DNA from: an uncultured Isosphaeraceae bacterium
Lineage (GTDB): Bacteria; Planctomycetota; Planctomycetia; Isosphaerales; Isosphaeraceae
Length of the DNA: 64,000 nucleotides
Assembly (NCBI GenBank): GCA_945957605.1
Contig: CAMFLR010000021.1
Coordinates: forward strand, 1 to 64,000
Direction of reading: 5' to 3'
Numbering within the stretch: position 1 is the first letter of the stretch; each line of letters begins with the position of its first letter. Under the pieces are notes generated by a model. That model saw nothing but the letters and a program-made list of their open reading frames with translations. It did not search any database and was not told the origin of the DNA. The translations under genes and the position numbers were made by a program. This document shows, piece after piece, positions 42,433 to 59,481 of the stretch.

Positions 42433-43578
42433 TTAGCCTTCGCCTTCAGCCGGTTCTTCCTCAGTGAAATAGTCGCGCAATTTCTCGAAGAAGCTTTTAC
42501 GTTTCGGGCTGATCGACTGATGTTCGATCTCCGCCAGCTCGCGCAACAGCTCTTCCTGACGGGCGCTGAGGTGCTTGGGGGTTTCAACCATCACCTGAAC
42601 CAACTCGTCGCCTCGACCGCGACCGTTGATATCCGGCATGCCGCGGCCCTTGAGCTTGAGGATGTCTCCGCTCTGTGCTCCGCGAGGAACGTGCAAACGG
42701 TCGGGACCGTCGAGCGTGGGGACTTCGATCTCGCCGCCAAGTGCGGCCTGCGGGAAGCTGATCGGCACCTGGCAATGAAGATCGTTTTGAACGCGTTCGA
42801 AGAACGGATGCTTGCGAACGTGAATCTGGATCCGAAGATTTCCGCGCGGAGCACCCGGGTCGCCTGGCTCGCCCTGATTGCGAAGCTGGAGCCACATACC
42901 CGTCTCCACTCCCGGCGGAATGTCGACCTTGAGCTGAGCACTCGCCGCAACCCGGCCCGCGCCTCGGCAGTGGGTGCAAGGATCGGTGATCCTTACGCCT
43001 TCGCCGCTGCACGACGGGCAGGTGGTAGCGACCTGGAAGAAGCCGCGCGACGAGACGACCTGTCCCTGCCCGCCGCAGTAATTGCAGGTGGTCGCGACCG
43101 TGCCCTTTTTCGCGCCCGACCCCTTACATTCGCCGCAAATCTCTTGCCGATTGAGTTCGATCGTCTTCGTGGCACCTCGCGCGGCCTCGATCAGCTCGAT
43201 TTCGAGCTTCATCAAGAGGTCCTGGCCGGGGCGGGGACCACGGCGGCGCTGGTTAAAGAGGTCGCCGAACATGCCGCCGCCGAAGATGTCGGAGAAGGCG
43301 GACATGATGTCGTCGGCATTGCGGAAATCGTGCACGCCCGCGCCTTCGAGACCCGCGTGGCCGTAGCGATCGTAGCGCTGGCGCTTCGCCTGGTCCGACA
43401 GCACTTCGTAAGCTTCAGCGCCTTCTTTGAACCGGCGTTCGGCGTCGGCGTCGCCGGGATTTTTATCAGGATGGTTCTTCAGAGCGAGCTGGCGATACGC
43501 ACGCTTGATCTCGTCGGCGTCGGCATCTCTTTTGAGGCCGAGAATCTCGTAATAATCGCGCTTCGTTGCCATCGGCAC
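42433..43578 (-). CDS. dnaJ: Chaperone DnaJ (type I Hsp40)
   Basis: The J domain (about 1-72) includes [22 protein letters not shown] and the HPD motif in [11 protein letters not shown] Gly/Phe region with GGGMFGDLF follows. The zinc domain has four CxxCxGxG repeats ([24 protein letters not shown] and CTHCRGAG) before the client-binding C-terminal domains. It delivers clients to DnaK. It lies downstream of the second groEL, beyond a terminator, and upstream of grpE. Confidence 0.95.
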
Positions 43579-43876: not shown

Positions 43877-45502
43877 TTAACGAACCGAACCTTCAACGCG
43901 AGGAGCGTGCTTCTCTTCGTCTTCCTTGATGTTCGTGATCATCGCTTCGGTCGTGAGCATGAGCCCAGCGATCGACGCGGCGTTCTGAAGCGCCGAGCGG
44001 GTGACCTTGGTCGGGTCGACGATGCCGGCAGCGAACATGTCGACATATTCGCCAGTGTTGGCGTTGAAGCCGTATGCGCCGGTCTGCGACTTGACCTCGT
44101 CGGCCACCACGCCACCGTCGTGACCGCCGTTGCCGGCGATGTGACGGGCGGGCTCTTCGAGAGCACGCAGGACGATCGAAGCGCCGAGCTGTTCGTCACC
44201 CTTGAGGGTGGCGAGGGCCTTCTCGACGGCCGGAATCGTGCGGATGAGGGCCGTGCCGCCGCCGGGGACGATTCCTTCTTCAGCCGCCGCGCGGGTGGCG
44301 TGCAGGGCGTCTTCGACGCGGGCCTTGAGTTCCTTCATCGACGCTTCGGTCGCAGCGCCGACGCTGATCAAGGCAACGCCGCCCGACATCTTGGCGAGAC
44401 GTTCCTGGAACTTTTCCTTGTCGTATTCGCTCTCGGTCTCTTCGATCTGGCGGCGAAGCTGGTCGATCCGCTTCTGGATGTCGGCCTTAACGCCGGCGCC
44501 GTTGATGATCGTCGTGCTGTCCTTGTTCACCTTGACCTGCTTGGCCTGGCCGAGCTGATCGATGGTGACGCTTTCCAGCTTGATACCGAGGTCTTCGCTG
44601 ATCACCGTGCCGCCGGTGAGCGTGGCGATGTCGCCAAGCATCGCCTTGCGGCGATCACCGAAGCCAGGAGCCTTGACGGCCGCGATGTTGAGGATGCCGC
44701 GGAGCTTGTTCACGACGAGGGTCGCGAGGGCTTCGCCGTCGACGTCTTCCGCAATGATCAAGAGCGGCTGGCCCGACTGGGCGACCTTCTCGAGCAAGGG
44801 GACGAGTTCGCGCAGGTTGCTGATCTTCTTCTCGTGGAGAAGAATGAGCGCGTCGTCGAAGATGACTTCCATCGTCGTCGGGCTGGTGACGAAATAGGGG
44901 CTCAGGTAGCCCTTATCGAACTGCATCCCTTCGACGAAGTCGAGCGTGGTTTCGGCGGTCTTGCCTTCTTCGACCGTGATCACACCGTCGCGACCAACGC
45001 GTTCGACGGCGTCGGCGAGAAGGTTGCCGATCGTCGCGTCGTTGTTGGCCGAGATCGCGCCGACCTGGGCGATTTCTTCCTTCTTCGACACCGGGCGGCT
45101 GATGTTCGAGTGCAGCTCGTTGATCGCCGCTTCGACCGCCTTCTCGATACCGCGGCGCACGGCCGTCGGGTTCGCACCCGAGGTGATGTTCCGCAGACCT
45201 TCGCGATAAATCGCGCGGGCAAGAATGGTGGCGGTCGTCGTGCCGTCGCCAGCGATGTCCGAGGTCTTCGAGGCGACCACGTTCACCAGCTTGGCGCCCA
45301 TGTTCTCGAACGGGTCTTCGAGCTCGATTTCCTTCGAGACCGTGACGCCGTCCTTCGTGACGGTGGGGCCGCCGAACGACTTGTTGATGATGACGTTACG
45401 CCCGGTCGGCCCGAGGGTCGTACCGACGGCTTTGGCCAGGGTATCGACACCGTCGAGCATCTTCCGTCGAGCGGCGTCGGAGAAAAGCAGTTGCTTGGGC
45501 AC
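43877..45502 (-). CDS. groEL: Chaperonin GroEL, paralogue without the GGM tail
   Basis: The 541-residue protein has all the GroEL landmarks: [20 protein letters not shown], the ATP-binding [37 protein letters not shown] and [15 protein letters not shown]. It ends in a charged tail, [11 protein letters not shown], instead of the Gly/Met-rich tail. Loss of that tail, along with many substitutions, suggests specialisation for other clients or stress conditions. It follows groES by 88 bases on the same strand. Confidence 0.96.
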
Positions 45503-46006: not shown

Positions 46007-47677
46007 TTACATCATCCCCATTCCGCCCATGCCACCCATGCCACCCATTCCGCCCATGCCTCCGCCATGATCGTGATGATCGTGGCCAGCAGCGGCGGCC
46101 TTCTTCTCTTTCTTCTCAACGATGATCGCTTCCGTCGTCAGCAGCAGGCCGGCGACCGAGGCGGCGTTTTGAAGGGCAGAGCGGGTGACCTTGGCGGGGT
46201 CGACAACGCCGAAAGCGAACATGTCGCCCCAGGTGTTGGCGTCGGCGTTGTAGCCGAAGTTGGCGTCGGTCGACTTCTGGATCTTCGAGACGACCACAGC
46301 GCCGTCGATGCCGGCGTTTTCGGCGATCGACCGGGCGGGCTGCTCGATGGCACGCTTGATGATCGCGACGCCAAGCGCCTCGTCACCCTTGGCGTCGATC
46401 GAGGCGAGCGCCTTCGAGGCACGAATGAGGGCCGTGCCGCCGCCGGGGACAATCCCTTCTTCGATTGCCGCGCGGGTGGCGTGAAGGGCGTCTTCGACGA
46501 GCGCCTTCCGCTCCTTCATTTCCGTTTCGGTCGCGGCGCCGACGTTGATCTGTGCCACACCGCCGGCGAGCTTCGCAAGACGCTCTTGGAGCTTCTCGCG
46601 ATCGTATTCGCTGTCGGTCTGGGTGATCTCGCGGCGAATCTGCTCGGTGCGACCCTTGATTTCGTCGGTCGTGCCGGCGCCTTCAACGATCGTGGTGTTC
46701 TCGCTGTCGATCGTCACCTTGCGAGCACGGCCAAGGTCGGTCAGCTCGACGCTTTCGAGCTCGACACCAAGATCCTTGAAGATCGCCTTGCCACCGGTCA
46801 GCGCGGCGATGTCGCCGAGCATCGCCTTGCGGCGATCGCCATAGCCGGGAGCTTTCACGGCGGCGACATTGAGGATGCCGCGGAGCTTGTTGACGACCAG
46901 GGTCGCCAGGGCTTCGCCATCGACGTCTTCCGCGATGATGAACAGCGGCTTGTTGGCCCGAGCGATCTTTTCCAGGACCGGAATCAAGATCTTGGGCGTG
47001 CTGATCTTCTCTTCGTAGATCAGGATGTAGGGATCTTCGAGGACGACTTCCGAGCGGTCCTGGTCGGTCACGAAGTGAGCCGAAAGGTAGCCGCGATCGA
47101 ACTGCATCCCCTCTACAACGTCAACCGACGTCTCGAAGCCCTTGCCTTCTTCAACGGTGATGACGCCGTCTTTACCAACGCGGTTGAACGCGTCGGCCAG
47201 CTTTTCACCGACCGAGCGGTCGTTGTTGGCTGCGATGGTGGCGACCTGGACGTAATCCTTCTCGGTGACCGGCCTCGACTGGCCCTTCACGTTTTCGACG
47301 ATGGCGGTAACCGCCTTGTCGATCCCGCGCTTGAGGGCCATGGCATCGGCACCGGCGGCGAGGGCTTTTAGCCCTTCCTTGAAGATCGCTTCGGCCAGCA
47401 CGGTCGCGGTGGTGGTACCGTCGCCCGCGGCGTCAGAGGTCTTCGAGGCGGCTTCCTTCACGAGCTGGGCGCCCATGTTCTCGTAGGCATCCGACAGCTC
47501 GATTTCTTCGGCCACCGTCACGCCGTCTTTGGTCACGGTCGGGCTGCCCCAGCCCTTATCAATCACCGCGTTCCGCCCGCGAGGACCGAGAGTGCTCCGG
47601 ACGGCACGCGCTAGCTTCGACACGCCACTGGCCAACTTTTGGCGTGCCTCCTCGTCGTAGGCCATCAACTTCGCCAC
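46007..47677 (-). CDS. groEL: Chaperonin GroEL, canonical copy with GGM tail
   Basis: The 556-residue protein carries [59 protein letters not shown] and [13 protein letters not shown]. It ends in a His/Gly/Met-rich tail ([14 protein letters not shown]...), longer than in E. coli and with an added histidine run that could bind metal. It is the first gene of the chaperone block. No CIRCE inverted repeat is visible upstream, so HrcA control is not indicated. Confidence 0.96.
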
Positions 47678-48200
47678 GGTGGAATCTCCTGCGAATCGAT
47701 CGTTGCAACGCCGCCGTCCTTTGATTGCGGACGACGGTCCGAGGGCTCATACATGCGTTCGGGACCCTCGCGAATCTCGCACCGCGTATTAGCAATCCTT
47801 GTGCCGTCTGTTGCGAATAGACTTAACTCGTTTGCAGGAAATTAGTTGGCAATTATGCCGGTGTCGACGTGCATCGTGAGTTCTGCCGTTTTGGCAGTTC
47901 TGCGTGGTACGCTGTCAGATCGTTCACCGGCGAGCGACACAGAACGACGGGATCGGTTGGTTCGTGTGAATTGCTATGAGTGCATATGACATCGTACGGA
48001 TGTCTGAGATTGTCTTTCATTGTCTGTCACATTTTCTGGTATGCTGCGTGTCACTTGTGATGCGCCGCGACTGACGATTGTCTGGTATCGCGTGCAGAAC
48101 CTACCAAGGCCGTTCGGCCAGTCGTGCAAGTCACCGTTTCGGTTCGAATCGAGGTGTGATTGAACTGACGTTCCCTTTGGACACGGTGGAGGGGCGAGCC
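47678..48200. other. Divergent promoter region between groEL and the zinc-ribbon gene
   Basis: About 520 bases separate divergent genes. ATTGTCT occurs at 48009-48015, 48019-48025 and 48077-48083, and TCTGGTAT twice (48034 and 48081 regions), giving a small direct-repeat cluster 120-190 bases upstream of the zinc-ribbon gene. No CIRCE element or consensus promoter was found. The GGAGGGG at 48188-48194 serves the next gene. Confidence 0.4.
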
Positions 48201-49340
48201 ATGGCGCGCGCGTCGACGGTGGGGTCGGGGTATCCTCTACCTACCATGGTGAAGTGCAAATGCGGCAAGAAGTTGCGGGCACGCCCGGAGTTCGTTGGCA
48301 GCGAAATTGTCTGTTGGAACTGTCACGCCAGCGTGCCAGTTCCCATTCACGTCGCTCCCGGATCATGGGTTGCCTGTCTGCTGCGCATGGGAGCGCGGCA
48401 GCTACTTGAAGCGAGAACGATCTCGCTCCTGGCCATTGGGGCCATCACAGTTACGTTTTCGCTTCGCATTCCGCAGTACGGAGTGTGGGGAGCGGCGGTC
48501 GCCCTTGCGCTTGTCATGGTCGGCTACGGTGAACTGTTAAGGCGGGGAAGTCAGGGAGACTGGACGAGTCCGCCGCGTGTGAGCGTTCTTATGCGCCTGT
48601 GGCGGGCATTGCTTTGCCTGGGCGCTGCCTCTGCACTCGCATTTCCGCTGATTCTGGCGTGGATTCGGCAGACAGCGCCACGGTTGTCGATCGTGGGAGT
48701 CGGAATCGCCGCGATTGGCTGCATGATCCTGCCGCTCGTCATGCTGGGAACGTACGCCCCTCAGGGATCAATTCGTGAACGAATCCGGATGATTGGCACG
48801 ATGATCGGCCGCCATCCGCTTGCCACGTTGTGCACGCTGCTCCTTCTGCCCACGACGTTACTCGCGGTTGAGGTCTGGCTGTACGAGGCGATTCGCTGGC
48901 AGGATTTGTTCCGCTACTTTGTTTTTGAGCTCTTCCCGCTCCCGGCGGACACGAAGTATTTCATGTCACGCATTTACGTGAAGGACATCGACTTTCTTGT
49001 AGTGCCGATGCCGTTGTTCGATGCGAGTTATGCGTCCGCGCTACGGCAGGGCTACACCTTCACTGGCTCGATTGCCGCTTCGCTCGCCCTGCCGATCTCG
49101 AACGGCATCGATCCAACGGTGCTTTACATTCGCGGCGAATCGTACCTGTATTGGCGGCTGGGCTTCACGGTTTTCACGGTGATGTGCATGCTGGCCGCGC
49201 TCGCCGTTCAGGCGCGTTGGCTGGGTTTGCTTTTAACTCTGGACTCCCGGCGCAACGAAGCAGAAGTCGCCGTCAGCGCTTCGACCTCCGCTACCATCGA
49301 GCAGCTTGTGCTTCCGTCAGATCAGAAACAACTTGCCTGA
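48201..49340 (+). CDS. Zinc-ribbon membrane protein, paralogue 1
   Basis: The 379-residue protein starts with a short zinc-ribbon-like segment, VKCKCGKKLRARPEFVG then VCWNCHASVPVP, with a Cys-x-Cys pair and a Cys-x2-Cys pair. About six membrane helices follow, with the recognisable [15 protein letters not shown] and [19 protein letters not shown] 48201 with GGAGGGG six bases upstream is much better than the frame's earlier start at 48078. I recognise no functional family. The tandem neighbour at 49732 is a close paralogue. Confidence 0.72.
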   Translation: MARASTVGSGYPLPTMVKCKCGKKLRARPEFVGSEIVCWNCHASVPVPIHVAPGSWVACLLRMGARQLLEARTISLLAIGAITVTFSLRIPQYGVWGAAVALALVMVGYGELLRRGSQGDWTSPPRVSVLMRLWRALLCLGAASALAFPLILAWIRQTAPRLSIVGVGIAAIGCMILPLVMLGTYAPQGSIRERIRMIGTMIGRHPLATLCTLLLLPTTLLAVEVWLYEAIRWQDLFRYFVFELFPLPADTKYFMSRIYVKDIDFLVVPMPLFDASYASALRQGYTFTGSIAASLALPISNGIDPTVLYIRGESYLYWRLGFTVFTVMCMLAALAVQARWLGLLLTLDSRRNEAEVAVSASTSATIEQLVLPSDQKQLA

Positions 49341-49731
49341 ATTGTGCAGTCGCACATTCCATCGTCCCGTGCCTGTGGCCCGGTTATTGCAGTGGATCTC
49401 CACTGTTCCGGGGGGTGCGGGACTCTTCATTGTCGATTCACAATTCGTTCACACAATTCGACATAAAGTGCTGCACCGCTTGGGGACATGATGAAGTGGA
49501 TGGATGTAATCGTAAACCATTTTTACGGTTGCGTTCAGTGTCACAAAACGAATTATGAACCGTCGGATTGTTGATCAATGCGCAACGCGTTCTAGGTTGT
49601 TCAAGTCGGGAACGATCTCTCAGAACGCTTCGATCTTCCCCTCGCGCAATATTCATCAACAAACTGAAATGGGTGAAGGGCCGGAAGTTCTTTCGGCCGG
49701 CGTTCCTTCATTGACTTCGGGGACTCAGGGC
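49341..49731. other. Intergenic region between the zinc-ribbon paralogues
   Basis: About 390 bases, AT-richer than the genes, separate the paralogues. An open frame continuous with the second gene begins at 49555, but its N-terminal part has no counterpart in paralogue 1. A weak hairpin CGTAAA/TTTACG lies at 49511-49527. The second gene probably has its own promoter here. Confidence 0.35.
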
Positions 49732-50874
49732 ATGGCGCGAAGTGCGTTGATGGCGGTGGGAATGCCTCTACCCACCATGGTCAAGTGCCGCTGTGGCAAA
49801 GTGTTACGGGCTCGTCCAGAATTCGCCGGCACTGATATTACGTGCTGGAGCTGTCATGAAGCCGTCGCGGTTCCCATTCACGTCGCCCCGGGCGACTGGG
49901 TGGCGAAGCTGCTCAAGATGGGCGCGAAGCAACTCCTTGAAGCGCAAACGGTTTCGCTGCTCGCCATCGGCGCGGCGCTCGTCGTCTTGTCGTTGCAGAT
50001 TCCCCAGTTTGGGGTATGGAGCGCAGCCTGCGCGCTCACAATTGTCATGATTGGGTATGGAGAATTGCTCCGTCGCGGCAGCCAGGGCGACTGGACCCGG
50101 CAACCGCATGTCACGATGAGAATGCGAGGCTGGCGCGCGGTTTTGTGCGTAACGTCGGCGATCGGCCTGACGCTTCCGCTGATTGTAGCTTGGGGGCACC
50201 AGGCGCAACCGCGTGTTACGACGCCGGGCTTGCTGATCGCTGGCGTGGCGTGCCTTGTCGTACCTCTTGTCATGCTCGGGACTTACGCGCCGACTGGTTC
50301 ACTCCAGGATCGCATGAAATTGATCGGTGCCATGGTGCGCCGGCACCCGTTTGCGACGCTTTGCTCGCTGCTGCTCTTGCCGGCCTCGCTCATCGCTGTC
50401 GAGCTGGTGACCCTCGAGACGCTTCGCTGGAACGAGTGGTTCCGTTACTTCGTGAGCGACCTGTTTCCCCTGCCCGCGGGCACAGTCCGTATCAACGGGC
50501 GCCTTTTCTTCGGGTCAGTCGATTTCATTTCGCTGCCTACTGGCGAATCCTTCGATCGCAGCTATGCCTCGGGGCTTCGGCACGGTTACACATTTACAGG
50601 CTCGATCGCTGCGTCACTCGCTTTGCCGATCACGAACAATCTGACTCCGTTCGCGGTATTCAAGCAGGCACATTACTACTTGTGGGTGCGCATCTTGTTC
50701 ACCTCGTTCACCGTCACGTGTATGCTGTCGGCACTCGCCGTCCAGGCGCGCTGGCTGGGCTTGCTCTCGACCTTGGATTCCCGACGAACCGAAGCTGAAG
50801 CCGCGATTTCGACTTCTTCGTCCGGGACAGCCAGGCAGCTTGTTCTTCTACCCCAACAGGGCAGTGCTGTATGA
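49732..50874 (+). CDS. Zinc-ribbon membrane protein, paralogue 2
   Basis: The 380-residue protein aligns end to end with paralogue 1: [74 protein letters not shown] and [16 protein letters not shown]. By eye well over half the residues are identical, the cysteines are conserved and the loop before GYTFTGS differs most. It ends in an ATGA overlap with the esterase gene (50871-50874), so translation of the two is probably coupled. The function is unknown. Confidence 0.72.
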
Positions 50875-51899: not shown

Positions 51900-52457
51900 A
51901 TGCGTTGGCTCGCTCTAATGCTCATGATCGCAACCGTTGCGTCGTGTTCAAAACGCGAGGTCTCACTGTTTGCGCTGCCGGAAGACGCGCGGCTCATGTT
52001 ATTCGAAGGGCTTCCTCATCAGGGTTACGAGCCGACGGTCTTTGACGAGGAAAAAAAGAAACCGGCGGTCGAAATGGGCGGTTTTCTGTTCTACGAACAG
52101 CCACTTCCTCTGAACGACGCAGACGCTCACGAACTTCGTAGAATCGTTGTGGATCCGAGCACGTATGTACCGTTCTTTGCTGAAAAAAAGTGCGGCGGAT
52201 TTCATCCCGATTACGCCATCAAGGCGAAGTCCGCAACAGGTGAGACCGTCTACTTAATCTGCTTCGGATGCGGGGAAGCCAAGATTATCAGACCGGACGG
52301 ATCGATGACCCGCTATGAACTCGATAATAACTACACCTCTTTGCACAAAACGCTAAAACCCTATCGAAAGAACCGTCCTCGAATCCGGACAGGCTCACCA
52401 CTCAATCCGTTAATGGAGTATCGCGAGGAGCTAAACGTAAGAGCCACGAGATCATGA
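51900..52457 (+). CDS. Lipoprotein with conserved Cys motif, function unknown
   Basis: The 185-residue protein has a lipoprotein signal (MRWLALMLMIATVASC). The mature part includes KKCGGFHPDYAIKAKS and LICFGCGEAKII, a pattern seen in many uncharacterised bacterial proteins. The C-terminus is basic. The gene is AT-richer than its neighbours, with A runs in FDEEKKKP and AEKKCGG, possibly a sign of transfer. A GGGGTGACC ribosome site precedes ATG 51900; a TTG at 51897 is adjacent. The frame of the downstream vWA gene touches its stop. Confidence 0.65.
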   Translation: MRWLALMLMIATVASCSKREVSLFALPEDARLMLFEGLPHQGYEPTVFDEEKKKPAVEMGGFLFYEQPLPLNDADAHELRRIVVDPSTYVPFFAEKKCGGFHPDYAIKAKSATGETVYLICFGCGEAKIIRPDGSMTRYELDNNYTSLHKTLKPYRKNRPRIRTGSPLNPLMEYREELNVRATRS

Positions 52458-52588
52458 GGTTCAATCCGTGCTTGGTCGCTCCAGTGTTTTCGACTTCTCA
52501 AAGACTGCTCTCCTCTCACGCTTGCCCGCGCTTCCACGTTCCTAGTAACATGGATGGAGCGTGGTCTGGCCGAGTAGGGGAGCCCGTC

Positions 52589-54571
52589 TTGCGACGATTT
52601 CCAGCGCTCTATCGCATGCCCGTGTTCTACCTGCTGCTCATTGTGGCGGGCGGAACCGCCGCGTTTTTTCTTCGTGGCAACACACCAAAATCGCCGACAG
52701 GGAGTGCATCTCCCGTGGTCGCCGTGATTTCACGCGATCTCCTCCCGTCGCAATCCGCATCCGCAAACCATCCGACGACAAGTACGCCTCAGCCAGCGGT
52801 TGGCGTCGCTGAAGCACTGCCCGCAGACACCATCCTTCGCAACGACGATGGGCTTCGTAGAAAAGTCCTCATCACAACGCGTAACGTTTTCTTGCGAAAA
52901 ACAGCCGATGGCGAAGCGGTCGGCGACGAGTTACCGCTCTTCGCAACGCGTTATGTTTACGCCGAGTCGCCGACCATGTATCGCGTTGGTGCGACGCCGA
53001 ACGGGCCGGATGGCTGGCTCTCGCGCGATGATGCAGCGGGTTGGGATTCGCGACTCGTTGCGCGGCCGACGAATCGATCGAGCCGACCCAGCATCGAAAT
53101 GTTCGGCGATCAATCTTGTCTTGCCGCGGCAATCAGCGGACGAGTTTGCCCCAAGCATGGCGGACGTTGCCCCAGCGAGGTTGAAAGCCAGTCCGACGGC
53201 GCCACGTTTCCCCGATTCGGCTGGCCGATCGTGCGGTTGACAACCGTTCTAGGCAGTGATGGCTTGCCGCGTCCGGTTGACGAGGTAATCCCGCTCGCGA
53301 CCGAAACGATTCCGTCCGACGCCGAGCGTCTTGCACCATTACGCCAGGCACTTCGGCATGTGTACATCACGTTTGTGATGGATACGACCGCCTCGATGAA
53401 ACCGAACATTGAGGCAGCGCGGACGCTTGCGAATACCCTCGCGAAGGATGTTGGCAAGGCGTTTGGCGACGTGACGCTACACCTGGGCCTTGTCGAATAT
53501 CGCGACGATGCTCCCGGCCTCGGTTTCAAGGCACGCGTGGCGACGCCGTTCACCGATGCCGTGGGTTTTCGCGGAGTGATCAACTCGCTTGAGCCTGCGC
53601 TTCACGAGGATGTCACCTCGGGCGAGTCGGTCGTCGAAGGATTGATGCTGGCCCTTCCCGGAACTCCAGGTGGTCTGGATTGGCCAAGCGGTCGGGCGGG
53701 AGAACTTGCGACCAAGCTCATCGTATTGCTGGGCGACGCTCCCGACCACACGTCCGATATCGACAAGCTGAACGCCCTCGCGGCGCGTGCCCGAGGCGCG
53801 GGGATTTCGATCGCGACCGTCGCACTCGATCAGCCCAAAGCGCTTTCGCAGGCCGATCACGATCGGCTCGAAACACAGTGGAAGGCGTTGGCGGAAGGGG
53901 CGTATCGTCCGCCGGATCGCGTGAGCAAGTTCGCCAAGCCCCTTCCGGCGATTGCCGTCCGGCTTGATGAGGCGTCGAGTCTGGTTTCGGGACTGCATGA
54001 CCTCGTCCGGGATCGTGTCGAACACGCGCGTTGGCTTGCCGAGTTGGCGAGAGCGGAAGATGAAGGAAGTCTCGACGATTATCTTCGCGTTCGCGGTCTC
54101 ACGCGCACACAAGCGGCCCCGGTTCTCGAGGATTTGCGACGGGGAGATCCTGTACCGAAGCGAACCCGGCGCCGACTTCCTTCAGTCAGCCGAGGCTGGC
54201 TCGCCGAACGGATGGGAGACACGCAATTCGTGACGATGGGCGTGCTGCTCTCGCGAGACGAGCTAGATACTTTGATCGCCCGGCTGAATTCGGCCGCCGA
54301 CAATGCCGATGAGTTGCGAGCGGTTGTGAACGCGGCGGCAGCGGGCGAATTTGATTTTTTGACCGCCGACCTGCGAGGGCTGACGGCCGAAGCTCAGGTC
54401 AAGCGCCGTAAGGCATTTCCTGCCCCTCCTGCCAATGCGGCCGACATCAAGACGCGGATTTCGACGGCGGTTGAAGGGCTTTCAGGCCTGCGGAATGACA
54501 TTCGCTGGTCCAATGCGCAAGAACTGATCGACGGTCGCGCAGTTGTTTCGTTTGATCTTATGAATTTTTGA
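52589..54571 (+). CDS. Membrane-anchored SH3-like and vWA-domain protein
   Basis: An N-terminal helix (YLLLIVAGGTAAFFL, about 13-27) is followed by an SH3b-like region (RNVFLRKTADGEAVG to GPDGWLSRDDA). Then comes a vWA domain, ITFVMDTTASM with the MIDAS DxTxS at residue 265, and LGLVEYRDDAPG and LIVLLGDAPDHT further on. The C-terminal 200 residues are helical. I chose TTG 52589 because GGGGAG lies five bases upstream. The open frame reaches ATG 52454 (overlapping the previous stop), but residues before 52589 look non-coding. The next gene follows 29 bases later, so they form an operon. Confidence 0.75.
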   Translation: MRRFPALYRMPVFYLLLIVAGGTAAFFLRGNTPKSPTGSASPVVAVISRDLLPSQSASANHPTTSTPQPAVGVAEALPADTILRNDDGLRRKVLITTRNVFLRKTADGEAVGDELPLFATRYVYAESPTMYRVGATPNGPDGWLSRDDAAGWDSRLVARPTNRSSRPSIEMFGDQSCLAAAISGRVCPKHGGRCPSEVESQSDGATFPRFGWPIVRLTTVLGSDGLPRPVDEVIPLATETIPSDAERLAPLRQALRHVYITFVMDTTASMKPNIEAARTLANTLAKDVGKAFGDVTLHLGLVEYRDDAPGLGFKARVATPFTDAVGFRGVINSLEPALHEDVTSGESVVEGLMLALPGTPGGLDWPSGRAGELATKLIVLLGDAPDHTSDIDKLNALAARARGAGISIATVALDQPKALSQADHDRLETQWKALAEGAYRPPDRVSKFAKPLPAIAVRLDEASSLVSGLHDLVRDRVEHARWLAELARAEDEGSLDDYLRVRGLTRTQAAPVLEDLRRGDPVPKRTRRRLPSVSRGWLAERMGDTQFVTMGVLLSRDELDTLIARLNSAADNADELRAVVNAAAAGEFDFLTADLRGLTAEAQVKRRKAFPAPPANAADIKTRISTAVEGLSGLRNDIRWSNAQELIDGRAVVSFDLMNF

Positions 54572-54600
54572 ACACGTTGATTGGTCATTAAGGACGTCGG

Positions 54601-57600
54601 GTGTTCATGGAGCAAATCTATTACACCCAGTGTCCCATGGGGTATGGTCTCGGGGCGAGCAACGGGTTTCAAATCAAGCGGCGGAGCGAGGGATATCCCG
54701 TCTCGTCCGACTTTCGCCATCTCGGCCTGCGTGCCTACCCCGGCGGCGGCCGCGTACTTGCGCCCGCGACACTCCGTTACAAACATGACGATACTCGCTA
54801 CGAAATCGCCTTTCTCTCGCCACGCGCGTTTGAATACGAGACCGAGGGCGGCACAAGCGGCAGTCGGCTCTGGGGCCGGCCTGGCGGGCATTTCGCGCAT
54901 GGAATTTTGCTCGATCGCACCGAGTTCGACGCAATCGACCGCTGGCCCGCCGGCCTGTTCGATTCGGCAATCTGGATCAGAAGCGATCCCGTGCCAACGC
55001 TCACGCAGCCGGAAGGGCAACAGGGACCTGCACAGGTAACGCTGAGCCGCGAAGCGCTTCTCGACCGACGCACCGCCTGGCAAGCGTGTTCTGCCTTGTT
55101 ACCGCGTGCCGACCTTATCGCGGGATTGCTCACGGCGATCGCACAGGCGGCGCTCGAAAGCCGAACGCTTTTTCTCATCGACGAACCCGATCGCCTCGCC
55201 CCGCTGATCGAGTTGCTCACCTGGGTCTTTCCGCGTTCGCTTCGCGCCGACCTTACCTTTTCGACGTTTCACGACCGCCCCGAGGAACTTCCCGGTTATC
55301 GCATTCACGGCACAATCGCCACAGCGCGACCGAATCGGCAGATTTTGCTGACGCAGGGGTTCATCGCCGATGTGAAATCCGGGCAAATCGAGCCACCGAT
55401 CGAGCCGGCTTCGTGGGCGCGATTGGTCGCCGGCTGGCTTCAAACCGGCGAGTTTGAAACACTGACGCGCTGGGCAGCGATCGTCGAGGCTTCGGCTTCA
55501 CGGTACGGCGCAACACCGTGGATGGGCGAACGCCTCGTTCGCGCGGCCGAGTTTGTCGAGCTTGTCGGAACGGCTGCGCCGGCGGTTGAGTGGCCACGAT
55601 TTCGCAGCCTTGTCGATTGGATTCCCGAAGGCGCGCTGAGAAACGAATGGGCGAATGCTCATCCCCCGGAATGGTGGCTATCGGGCTCGAGCTTTGACGA
55701 AAGCGCGCGGGCGTCGCTGGTGAGGCAGGCGGGGTTTGCGGCATCTTGGAAGGGCGAAAAAGCCGCGGGATGGGGGAAAGTCGTTTCGCGCGTGTTTGCG
55801 AACGCGCCGGGATCGGAACGGTTGCAGGCGTCGCTGGTCTTCTGGAAGACCGCACCCAATGAAGGCGCACGCATCGCGTTTCTCAGGGCCGATCGCGAAC
55901 ATTCACCGCTCGCAATCTGGACGGCGATTCGCAAACGACTCGAAGCCGAGCTGCCGGCCGATTCCGAAACGCTGCTTGCGCTCGATACGGAAGAGGCCGT
56001 TGCAACGGCGTGCGAGGGGAAATTCGACTCGCTCGATCGTCTGATCGACCGATCACTCGCGACCGGCAAGCCTCCTGTGAATTTCCTGTCAGCAATTGCG
56101 GCCGAGATGCGATTGCATCAGGGATCGACCGATCGAATCGCAACGCGGTTAGGCAGACTGCTCGAAAGCCCGGACGCAGCGAACTGGGCGTTGCGACAAG
56201 ATGTGCCCGAAGCCTGGCTCGGTCCGCGATTGCGTCGGCTGTTTGCCGATGCCGACACACGCGACGAATGGAACTCGCTGATTCTGGCGACGCCCAGCGA
56301 TCACCTGCCGCAACTCGCCCGCACCGTGCTGGAGATTGCGTCCGAAAGCGGAATGGCGGATGAGGCATTTGTCTGGGGTGTTGAGGATATTTTGCTTCGA
56401 CTGCCCGAATCGCAGCGACCATCCGACAACCGCTGGCCGGGTACTTATCTCGATCGCATGCGTTCGGATTTGCGACTGATCGCCCGGCTACGCGGCAATG
56501 AATCGCCCAGCCCCGAAATCCGTCGCTGGTTCAAGGCTGCGAGCGAACGTGGCGAGTTGGACCGAACGCACAAGAAGCGGATCGAGCACGTCGGCACGCT
56601 GGCGAAAACTCTGGCGGCGCAAGCGCCCGCGCCGCTCGATGAACTCGAACTGGCGCGCATTCCGGCCGTGGATCGCGCGGAGGTTCTCAAACGCTGGCTC
56701 ACGCAAGGACGGCCCAATATCGAACAATTGCTCGAATCGTGTGGCGACGCGTGGGCCGAGAGCTTTCTCGCCGGCGCCGAGGAGATGCCCGAACTAGCAA
56801 AAGCGATCGCGGGCGCGCCGTTCCTTCGACATCACGTCGATCGCCCCGAACGCTGGCTGCAAAACGTGCTCGCGGTTTGTCGTCGGCTTCAACCGCAAGT
56901 CGATGAGACGACCGGCCTGAGCGAGGACAATCTCGTCTCACACGTCGTCGCGGCGACGGCCGATCCGGGAATTCGTACGCAGGCAACCTGGCGTTTGCTC
57001 GAATATCTCGTTACGCAGGAATTCACGAAGCGGACGATCGGCGAGGCATTTCGTGCCGATCTCGCCAGGCGTGATCCAGTGGCGAGTGCAGAAGTTGTTG
57101 AAGCCTGGGACAAGGCGACCACCAAGCTGCCGCCGGCAAATTCTTACTTCTGGGAAACGGTCCTGAACCTGTGCGATAGCCGGCGGCTCAAGGTTGTCGT
57201 TGGAACTCACGGCGTCTGGCTGGCGAACCAGAATCTCGTGCTGCCCTGGTGGGATCACGACCGCGTGCCGGGCAGCGTTAACGATATGCGCGATGCCTTC
57301 GCGCGATTGATCGCCTTTGCACCGATCGAAGGTGCGATGCTGGCGAATACGCGGACGTGGATGAACGGCGACGCCAAGGCGGGAACACGTCCCTGGCTGT
57401 CGCTCCGCGGACGGGCGCGATGGGATTGGATTTATCGCCTGAGTGACGAAGTGTTCAACGACAACATTACCGACAAGACCCGCGCCTGGAATGTGTTCAA
57501 CTGGCGGAACCTTGATCCCGATGATCTCACGCTCGACGAAAAGCACGCCCTCATCGCCTGGGTGATTTACAAGATCAAGGACCCGTCGGAGTTTCAGATT

Positions 57601-57780
57601 CCTCCGGTCGCCAAGTGGCTCGTCCGGTTGGGGCTGACGGAAGTGAATCGCGTGAAGGACTGGAAAAACGAGTTGCGCGGATTGGATGATGTTCCGATCA
57701 ACATCGTGCGCGATCGATCGCTGTTCGTGGAACGGTTGCGATCGGAGATGAATACGCTCCTTAAAGAGCAGCTTACCTGA
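54601..57780 (+). CDS. GAP1-like (GTPase-associated protein 1) large protein
   Basis: The 1059-residue protein has an N-terminal domain opening QIYYTQCPMGYGLGASNGFQ, like the GAP1-N2 domain described for GTPase-centred conflict systems. The region ending PRSLRADLTFSTFHDRP (about residues 205-225) resembles the GAP1 middle domain. The remaining 800 residues are mostly helical with no family I recognise; WWDHDRVPGSVNDMRDAFARL is a late conserved-looking patch. GTG 54601 has AAGGA six bases upstream; ATG 54607 is second choice. It follows the vWA gene. No GTPase lies in the window's neighbourhood. Assignment is by pattern memory only. Confidence 0.6.
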   Translation: MFMEQIYYTQCPMGYGLGASNGFQIKRRSEGYPVSSDFRHLGLRAYPGGGRVLAPATLRYKHDDTRYEIAFLSPRAFEYETEGGTSGSRLWGRPGGHFAHGILLDRTEFDAIDRWPAGLFDSAIWIRSDPVPTLTQPEGQQGPAQVTLSREALLDRRTAWQACSALLPRADLIAGLLTAIAQAALESRTLFLIDEPDRLAPLIELLTWVFPRSLRADLTFSTFHDRPEELPGYRIHGTIATARPNRQILLTQGFIADVKSGQIEPPIEPASWARLVAGWLQTGEFETLTRWAAIVEASASRYGATPWMGERLVRAAEFVELVGTAAPAVEWPRFRSLVDWIPEGALRNEWANAHPPEWWLSGSSFDESARASLVRQAGFAASWKGEKAAGWGKVVSRVFANAPGSERLQASLVFWKTAPNEGARIAFLRADREHSPLAIWTAIRKRLEAELPADSETLLALDTEEAVATACEGKFDSLDRLIDRSLATGKPPVNFLSAIAAEMRLHQGSTDRIATRLGRLLESPDAANWALRQDVPEAWLGPRLRRLFADADTRDEWNSLILATPSDHLPQLARTVLEIASESGMADEAFVWGVEDILLRLPESQRPSDNRWPGTYLDRMRSDLRLIARLRGNESPSPEIRRWFKAASERGELDRTHKKRIEHVGTLAKTLAAQAPAPLDELELARIPAVDRAEVLKRWLTQGRPNIEQLLESCGDAWAESFLAGAEEMPELAKAIAGAPFLRHHVDRPERWLQNVLAVCRRLQPQVDETTGLSEDNLVSHVVAATADPGIRTQATWRLLEYLVTQEFTKRTIGEAFRADLARRDPVASAEVVEAWDKATTKLPPANSYFWETVLNLCDSRRLKVVVGTHGVWLANQNLVLPWWDHDRVPGSVNDMRDAFARLIAFAPIEGAMLANTRTWMNGDAKAGTRPWLSLRGRARWDWIYRLSDEVFNDNITDKTRAWNVFNWRNLDPDDLTLDEKHALIAWVIYKIKDPSEFQIPPVAKWLVRLGLTEVNRVKDWKNELRGLDDVPINIVRDRSLFVERLRSEMNTLLKEQLT

Positions 57781-57893: not shown

Positions 57894-58892
57894 ATGGCGG
57901 CACAGGCGAAGGGGCGGCCCGTTGTGGGCGTGGATCTCGGCGGCACGAAGATCCTCACGGGCGTGGTCGCCGACGGCAAGACCATTCTTAGCCGTGCCAA
58001 GCGCCCCACTCCGGCCCGCGAAGGCGCCGAGGCGATCTCTCGCGCCATCGTGGAAAGCGTCGATGAGGCAATCGCCAGCGCAGGACTCACGCGCGAAGCG
58101 ATTGCTGGCGTTGGCATCGGCTCTCCCGGCCCGCTCGACTCAGACACCGGCGTGATTCTCTTCAGCTCGAATCTGTCGGTCGAAAACTTCCCGATCGCAC
58201 CGGAGCTGGCCAAAACGCTCGACAAGCCGGTGTTTCTCTGGAACGACGTCCGCGTCGGCGGCTACGGCGAATATCGCCTGGGCGCAGGTGTGGGGCATCG
58301 CAACATCCTCTGCGCGTTCGTCGGCACCGGAGTCGGCGGCTGCCTGATCATTGACGGCAAGATCGTCAACGGCTCGACCGGCAACGCGGGTGAGATTGGA
58401 CACGTGGTCGTCAAGGCAGGCGGGCCGAGCTGCAATTGCGGTAATCGCGGCTGCCTCGAAGCCTATTCCAGCCGCACCGCCATCGCCAGGCGCATCGTCA
58501 AGGCGGTCCGCAAAGGACATTCGACGATTCTGGCGAGCAAGGTCGACAAGAAGTCGGGCCGACTCAAGAGTGGCGATCTCGCGGCCGCAGTCGCCGCGAA
58601 TGATCCCGTCGCGCTCAAAGAAGTGCAGCGGTCTGCACATTATCTAGGCATTGGTTTGGGTGGACTGGTCAACGTGTTCGGTCCCGAGATCGTTGTCATC
58701 GGCGGTGGCGTGACCGAAGCGCTCGGTCAGCCGTTCGTCGATCTCATCACGACATCGCTCCGAAAGATCGTTCTCGTCGATCCCAATCAGACGATCAAGA
58801 TCGTTCCCGCCTCGCTGGGAGACGACGCTGGAGTGCTGGGCGCAGCGCTTCTGGCCAAGGAAAAGATCGCGCATCTGGCCAAGGAAGGTTGA
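57894..58892 (+). CDS. ROK-family glucokinase
   Basis: The 332-residue protein has the ATP-binding DLGGTK (about 13-18), GVGIGSPGPLD and NDVRVGGYGEYRLGAG with the catalytic Asp. AFVGTGVGGCLIIDG and the ROK zinc-binding pair follow, the histidine in EIGHVVV and CNCGNRGCLE. It should phosphorylate glucose or a close sugar with ATP. It stands alone after the GAP1-like gene. Confidence 0.92.
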   Translation: MAAQAKGRPVVGVDLGGTKILTGVVADGKTILSRAKRPTPAREGAEAISRAIVESVDEAIASAGLTREAIAGVGIGSPGPLDSDTGVILFSSNLSVENFPIAPELAKTLDKPVFLWNDVRVGGYGEYRLGAGVGHRNILCAFVGTGVGGCLIIDGKIVNGSTGNAGEIGHVVVKAGGPSCNCGNRGCLEAYSSRTAIARRIVKAVRKGHSTILASKVDKKSGRLKSGDLAAAVAANDPVALKEVQRSAHYLGIGLGGLVNVFGPEIVVIGGGVTEALGQPFVDLITTSLRKIVLVDPNQTIKIVPASLGDDAGVLGAALLAKEKIAHLAKEG

Positions 58893-59181
58893 CGTAGCGA
58901 TCGCGCACGACGGATGCAGATCGACGCGATCTCTGATCGCTCAACGGTGATGATTTGACTTCGTGTTGATCATCGAATGGGGGATGCTGCGCGCAAATTC
59001 ACAGCACCTTCACGGTTTGGCACGCCATTCGATGTTAAGGAAGTGTGCCAGGACCCCGACAAGAAGTCGGTTCGCTCCGAACGAGCATGCCCTCTGCAGC
59101 GTAAGGAGGGTATGGACAGTTGGAGCGAGTGTGGTTACTCTCACGGCCGGTGGCAACATCTTCACCATGGAACACATCTCC

Positions 59182-59481
59182 ATGAAGAAGGTCAAACGCT
59201 TCCGCTTGCATTCGAAAGCAGCCCGTCTCGAACGACACCTCGAAATCTGCTTCGACACGCGAAAACCCCGACGCATTCGTACTCGATCAGCCCGATATGC
59301 CGCCGCACTTGGCGAGCAACTCGGGCTGATTTCGCGTCCAAGGGTTTGCGCCTGGTGCCGCAAGCGGGCGAGGCTGCAGAGACACCACTGGGACTACGAT
59401 GAACCCCTCAACGTGACGTTCTTATGCGTTGATTGTCACCCGATAGCCGACGATATGGTGCTCCACGCAACGTCGGCCTGA
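59182..59481 (+). CDS. Small HNH-like zinc protein
   Basis: The 99-residue protein is strongly basic. Its second half reads RVCAWCRKRARLQRHHWDYDEPLNV, then FLCVDCHPIAD. The two Cys pairs and the central HHWDYDEPL motif match compact HNH-type domains common in phages. ATG 59182 (MKKVKRF) is preferred; the frame opens back to 58963 without any family-like sequence. No clear ribosome site is visible, and whether it cuts DNA is unknown. Confidence 0.6.
   Translation: MKKVKRFRLHSKAARLERHLEICFDTRKPRRIRTRSARYAAALGEQLGLISRPRVCAWCRKRARLQRHHWDYDEPLNVTFLCVDCHPIADDMVLHATSA

Follow-up and report, generated by a model that had tools for sequence, protein, structure and literature searches.

GTPase–GAP1 systems of bacteria have been predicted from gene neighbourhoods alone, and our literature search turned up no experimental study of them. 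For the GAP1-N2-type DO-GTPase systems, a role in biological conflict was predicted because their effectors vary and their neighbourhoods are mobile (Kaur, Burroughs, Iyer, Aravind 2020, PMC7159879). In firmicutes these systems include extracellular vWA proteins; among the partners named for planctomycetes are GYF proteins with trypsin or TM regions (PMC7159879).

We analysed a related locus from an uncultured Isosphaeraceae bacterium (G000, 8.8-Mb genome). The window comprises bases 1–64000 of contig C21 and contains three ORFs in line on the + strand, encoding a lipoprotein, a vWA protein and a GAP1-like protein, all of which are real (Table 1). Two of them belong to a module that represents a known kind of GTPase–GAP1 system in a lineage-specific form with unlinked genes. 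Like the published GAP1-N2 systems (PMC7159879), it has a planctomycete host, GAP1-M together with a diverged, sub-threshold match to GAP1-N2, a DO-GTPase2 with two N-terminal zinc ribbons and a vWA accessory protein; a GrpE-like gene found by the GTPase gene in several relatives matches their HSP70/GrpE theme. Major differences can also be observed. In most members the GTPase gene is not linked to that of GAP1, the GAP1 protein bears a long alpha-solenoid, and the chromosomal synteny is conserved rather than mobile. Neither an FNIII protein nor a variable effector was seen; FNIII-repeat proteins are absent from the 25 commonest Pfam families of the scanned neighbours. On balance, we consider the window to hold the GAP1 and vWA half of a dispersed GTPase–GAP1-N2 system, the GTPase of which is probably encoded in trans on contig C8.

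Table 1 Features of the module and its immediate neighbours in the window.
Feature	Position	Strand	Basis
Orphan lipoprotein, 185 aa, AT-richer	51900..52457	+	Without Pfam/NCBIfam match above cut-off; GC
vWA protein, 660 aa, one predicted N-terminal transmembrane segment	52589..54571	+	Pfam, alignment, synteny, co-occurrence, hydropathy
GAP1-like protein, 1057 aa	54607..57780	+	Pfam, 15-orthologue alignment, hhalign, AlphaFold2, hydropathy
ROK-family sugar kinase	57894..58892	+	Pfam, synteny; directly downstream of the GAP1-like gene

The GAP1-like protein and its upstream neighbours

The preliminary description proposed that the largest protein resembles GAP1, to be checked against the GAP1-N2 and GAP1-M profiles. 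A profile match exists: GAP1-M is detected at E 1e-8 and 35.7 bits, above the Pfam cut-off of 24, and was matched in all 15 orthologues scanned. The N2 half of the assignment is less clear. GAP1-N2 reaches E 0.0037 and 17.7 bits, which is under its Pfam cut-off of 24, and is found at E<0.01 in 9 of the 15 orthologues, with a best value of 5.8e-5. Alignment of the GAP1-like profile to 11 canonical GAP1 N2-M stretches with hhalign covered 182 columns (E 2.3e-5, probability 76). Judged by these profile comparisons, the protein is a GAP1 with a putative, diverged GAP1-N2 domain.

In the predicted layout, the diverged GAP1-N2 (residues ~1–140) and GAP1-M (~167–234) precede an all-helical alpha-solenoid of roughly 750 residues that extends from residue ~265 to the C-terminus. 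The AlphaFold2 model is confident for the solenoid and poor for the N-terminal 160 residues. Foldseek searches with this model returned generic helical-repeat proteins only, none at E<0.001, a sequence search of the PDB gave nothing meaningful, and the hydropathy profile contains no transmembrane segment. The alignment of 15 orthologues contains a nearly invariant N-terminal stretch, QIYYTQCPxGYGLGASNGFQxKR, which is among the most conserved parts of the protein and likely forms the GTPase contact. The gene starts at ATG 54607, with AAGGA ahead of the start codon.

The VWA domain of the upstream protein scores 24.6 bits against a Pfam cut-off of 23.8. The protein contains the MIDAS sequence DTTASM, a C-x9-C-x2-H-x3-C motif and one N-terminal hydrophobic segment, preceded by a short YRMP motif that is kept in the orthologues; the segment would anchor the protein in the membrane, and its topology is likewise a prediction from hydropathy. 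The most likely start is TTG 52589 and not ATG 52454, because the orthologues begin at (M)RRFPA[LI]YRMP or MPALYRMP. With this start, the gene no longer seems to overlap that of the lipoprotein. The vWA gene lies 35 nt upstream of the GAP1-like gene; the gap is 10–35 nt in G000, G001, G002 and G021, and the pair is found in tandem in three genera. The tandem arrangement and the single predicted transmembrane segment agree with the membrane-anchored vWA partner proposed earlier. An AlphaFold2 model of the vWA protein, calculated from three sequences, was unusable (mean pLDDT 47).

The three genes had been described as one cluster, of which the vWA–GAP1 tandem holds and the lipoprotein does not. 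The lipoprotein gene starts at ATG 51900, encodes a TVAS-C lipobox and is AT-richer, as noted before, with a GC content of 51% compared to 61–63% in the neighbouring genes. Its linkage to the vWA gene is not conserved in the loci fetched from relatives. Even in the same-genus genome G001 an esterase gene directly precedes the vWA gene and the lipoprotein is absent, and no homologue was found in any fetched relative locus or on plasmids. The lipoprotein is therefore an orphan beside the conserved module and outside it. PADLOC and NCBIfam scans of the three proteins gave nothing above cut-off.

Distribution, inheritance and the conflict hypothesis

We surveyed 59 genomes, 37 of them Isosphaeraceae. 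The GAP1-like gene is present in 16 and absent from 43, and all carriers are Isosphaeraceae (16/37); they include Singulisphaera acidiphila DSM 18658, Singulisphaera sp. GP187 and Tautonia sociabilis as well as Isosphaeraceae MAGs. When the best two candidates per genome were scored with the GAP1 profile across 392 genomes of the phylum, the only other match was G427, a planctomycete of another family. The patchy presence within Isosphaeraceae indicates that the gene is not strictly housekeeping, and conservation in all relatives, raised earlier as an alternative, does not apply. A ROK kinase gene adjoins the GAP1 gene in 13 of the 14 readable loci and is probably its stable neighbour. The synteny with ROK, an HDOD kinase and MnmG is stable across the loci, and GAP1 distances track those of MnmG and ROK. 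The ROK synteny and the shared distances point to vertical inheritance of the GAP1-like gene.

It was proposed that the locus is a conflict system, which would mean that GTPase and GAP1 sense an invader and trigger a membrane effector. Gene neighbourhoods led to the definition of the family as a predicted conflict system (PMC7159879), the GAP1-like gene is patchily distributed in its host family, and a vWA partner at the membrane is reminiscent of the extracellular vWA proteins found in firmicute GAP1-N2 systems. However, neither variable effectors nor signalling genes are linked to the module in the 14 loci, where the neighbours resemble ordinary metabolic and regulatory genes and not a defence island. 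PADLOC models run against 76 neighbouring proteins produced two isolated matches only, the proteins of the module match no known defence system, and a plasmid search found no copies of its genes. The stable synteny with ROK, HDOD kinase and MnmG and the lack of any experimental study in the literature that we searched likewise speak against this reading. We regard a conflict role as possible but unsupported, and as unlikely overall.

A candidate cognate GTPase encoded in trans

The preliminary description stated correctly that the window contains no GTPase: a profile search of the contigs of the genome detected no DO-GTPase on C21. The same search with DO-GTPase2 gave one strong match, on C18, and a weak match each on C8 and C3. 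The C8 protein (C8:298461–299753) matches DO-GTPase2 at 6.9e-6 and 26.3 bits, slightly short of the 27-bit cut-off. Its GTPase motifs are intact (G1 GPQSVGKT, G3 DTAGED, G4 NKLD, G5 SALG), and it carries two N-terminal zinc ribbons, with CxxC/CxxH and CxxC/CxxC pairs at residues 62, 78, 146 and 158. The neighbourhood survey suggested earlier for the missing GTPase identified its counterpart in G004, where 20 nt separate the GAP1 orthologue from a downstream gene for a 433-aa DO-GTPase (DO-GTPase2 E 2.9e-10), which is followed by a GrpE-like gene. The C8 protein is an orthologue of the G004 GTPase, to which it is 62% identical. The earlier view of a reduced system without a GTPase is thereby overturned; a GTPase on C8 makes the locus a dispersed variant of the published GAP1-N2 systems.

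Of the 16 genomes with the GAP1-like gene, 15 encode the GTPase, which shares 49–66% identity with the G004 protein; the 43 remaining genomes have no GTPase of comparable identity. The sole exception is G008, which is 74% complete. Orthologues of the vWA protein follow a similar pattern (14/16 and 0/43); none was found in genus g16, and in genus g3 (L119:8518–10608 and L120:1436–3574) DTTASM is replaced and the MIDAS lost, with GAP1 and GTPase kept. In G012, a diverged GTPase (32%) is located at the same kind of locus, with no partner detected. The two genes are adjacent in G004 and unlinked in the genome analysed here and in most members. They are separated by 11–18 kb in G010, G026 and G027, a spacing that suggests an ancestral neighbourhood which was later broken up. 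Adjacency searches overlook components of systems such as this one, whose parts are unlinked and yet travel together.

Since the GTPase is unlinked in this genome, its pairing with the GAP1-like protein rests on orthology and co-occurrence. The co-occurrence is clustered phylogenetically: it corresponds to ~5 changes on the best MnmG tree, of which well-supported branches require only one. An independent-pairs test on this tree had no power, with one pair on well-supported branches. More weight is therefore carried by the adjacency in G004 and G427 than by counting. A mirror-tree comparison gave a partial r of 0.61 for GAP1 and GTPase distances and 0.74 for the ROK kinase control; the correlation is thus unspecific and was not used.

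The G427 cluster (L204:217–10641) encodes a multi-AAA protein, an HSP70-like protein, two proteins without assignment, a DO-GTPase2 and a GAP1-N2/M protein. As in the window module, a related GTPase is combined with GAP1-N2/M, here directly preceding a clear GAP1-N2/M gene. The G427 GTPase is related at 28% identity (E 8e-39), compared to 21% (5e-17) for the canonical GTPase. The cluster differs in its intact N2 domain (1e-37) and in the presence of the HSP70-like and multi-AAA genes. Taken together, the orthology, co-occurrence and adjacency make it very probable that the C8 protein is the cognate GTPase of the GAP1-like protein.

Two further GTPase loci are found in the same genome. A canonical GAP1-N2 system at C3:80484–about 90000 (L008:6485–15849) consists of a zinc-ribbon GTPase, a GAP1 with N2 and M domains, a 1001-aa protein, a 2xGYF membrane protein and a zinc-ribbon trypsin. 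Its GTPase and GAP1 belong to the same families as those of the window module. It differs in that GTPase and GAP1 are in tandem, the GAP1 has a clear N2 domain (5e-29) and a transmembrane segment, and the 2xGYF membrane and zinc-ribbon trypsin genes are added. The third pair, on C18 (L009:6943–10642), comprises a 774-aa DO-GTPase2 and a 454-aa protein; the latter has a membrane segment and matches GAP1-N2 weakly.

With both of these GTPases encoded in the genome, the GAP1-like protein could instead be the second partner of either of them. We find this improbable, as the C3 GTPase follows the canonical GAP1 in its distribution and has its own tandem GAP1, and the C18 type occurs in nearly all family members, with or without the window GAP1; the C18 GTPase, too, has a neighbour of its own, which matches GAP1-N2 weakly. 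A GTPase-less derivative in which GAP1 acts with the vWA protein alone would account for the tandem genes on a contig without a GTPase, but is slightly less credible still, given that a GTPase of the cognate type is kept in 15 of 16 genomes and adjacent in G004, and that the likely GTPase contact is among the most conserved parts of GAP1.

Proposed mechanism and further features of the window

In the dispersed system that we favour, the C8 GTPase would serve as the switch and the GAP1-like protein as its partner, with the N2 and M domains binding the GTPase and the alpha-solenoid acting as a scaffold that holds clients. The membrane-anchored vWA protein may capture peptides via its MIDAS and so bring the envelope side into the circuit. 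In this respect it resembles the MoxR–vWA chaperone pairs, in which a MIDAS-bearing vWA protein is likewise the likely peptide binder; unlike in those pairs, no MoxR ATPase gene was seen beside the vWA gene, and the vWA protein is predicted to be membrane-anchored. A GrpE-like exchange factor could tie the switch to Hsp70. Its gene is often located beside that of the GTPase (directly downstream in G003, G004, G009, G026 and G034), and roughly half of the family members that lack this GAP1 have it as well. The output is probably the chaperone-dependent assembly or remodelling of a membrane complex, triggered by an invader or by envelope stress. For the steps downstream of the GTPase pairing our confidence is much lower than for the pairing itself; we infer the interaction, the vWA topology and the output.

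A tentative extension of this scheme is a vertically inherited, dispersed GTPase–GAP1–vWA–GrpE circuit of Isosphaeraceae, in which a vWA receptor on the envelope side would be coupled to a chaperone-linked GTPase in the cytoplasm. A switch predicted to act in conflict may in this case have become, or originally have been, a regulator of envelope assembly or stress. Singulisphaera acidiphila and Tautonia sociabilis, both culturable planctomycetes, have the stable chromosomal version, which makes a conflict role and an envelope or chaperone role testable against each other; in S. acidiphila DSM 18658 every part of the system is present.

Several other genes of the window were noted. Tandem paralogues at 48078–49340 and 49555–50874 are 57% identical and contain an N-terminal zinc-ribbon-like CxCG...CWxCH pattern and several hydrophobic segments; Pfam gave neither of them a match above cut-off, and the GAP1 loci of other genomes have no relatives of them nearby. 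Two groEL genes are located near each other at 43877–45502 and 46007–47677, with dnaJ nearby at 42433–43578. A small protein encoded at 58963–59481 is conserved in several relatives, next to the same synteny block. It has a C-terminal CxxC...HH...CxxCH pattern that, by eye only, resembles an HNH-like zinc motif.
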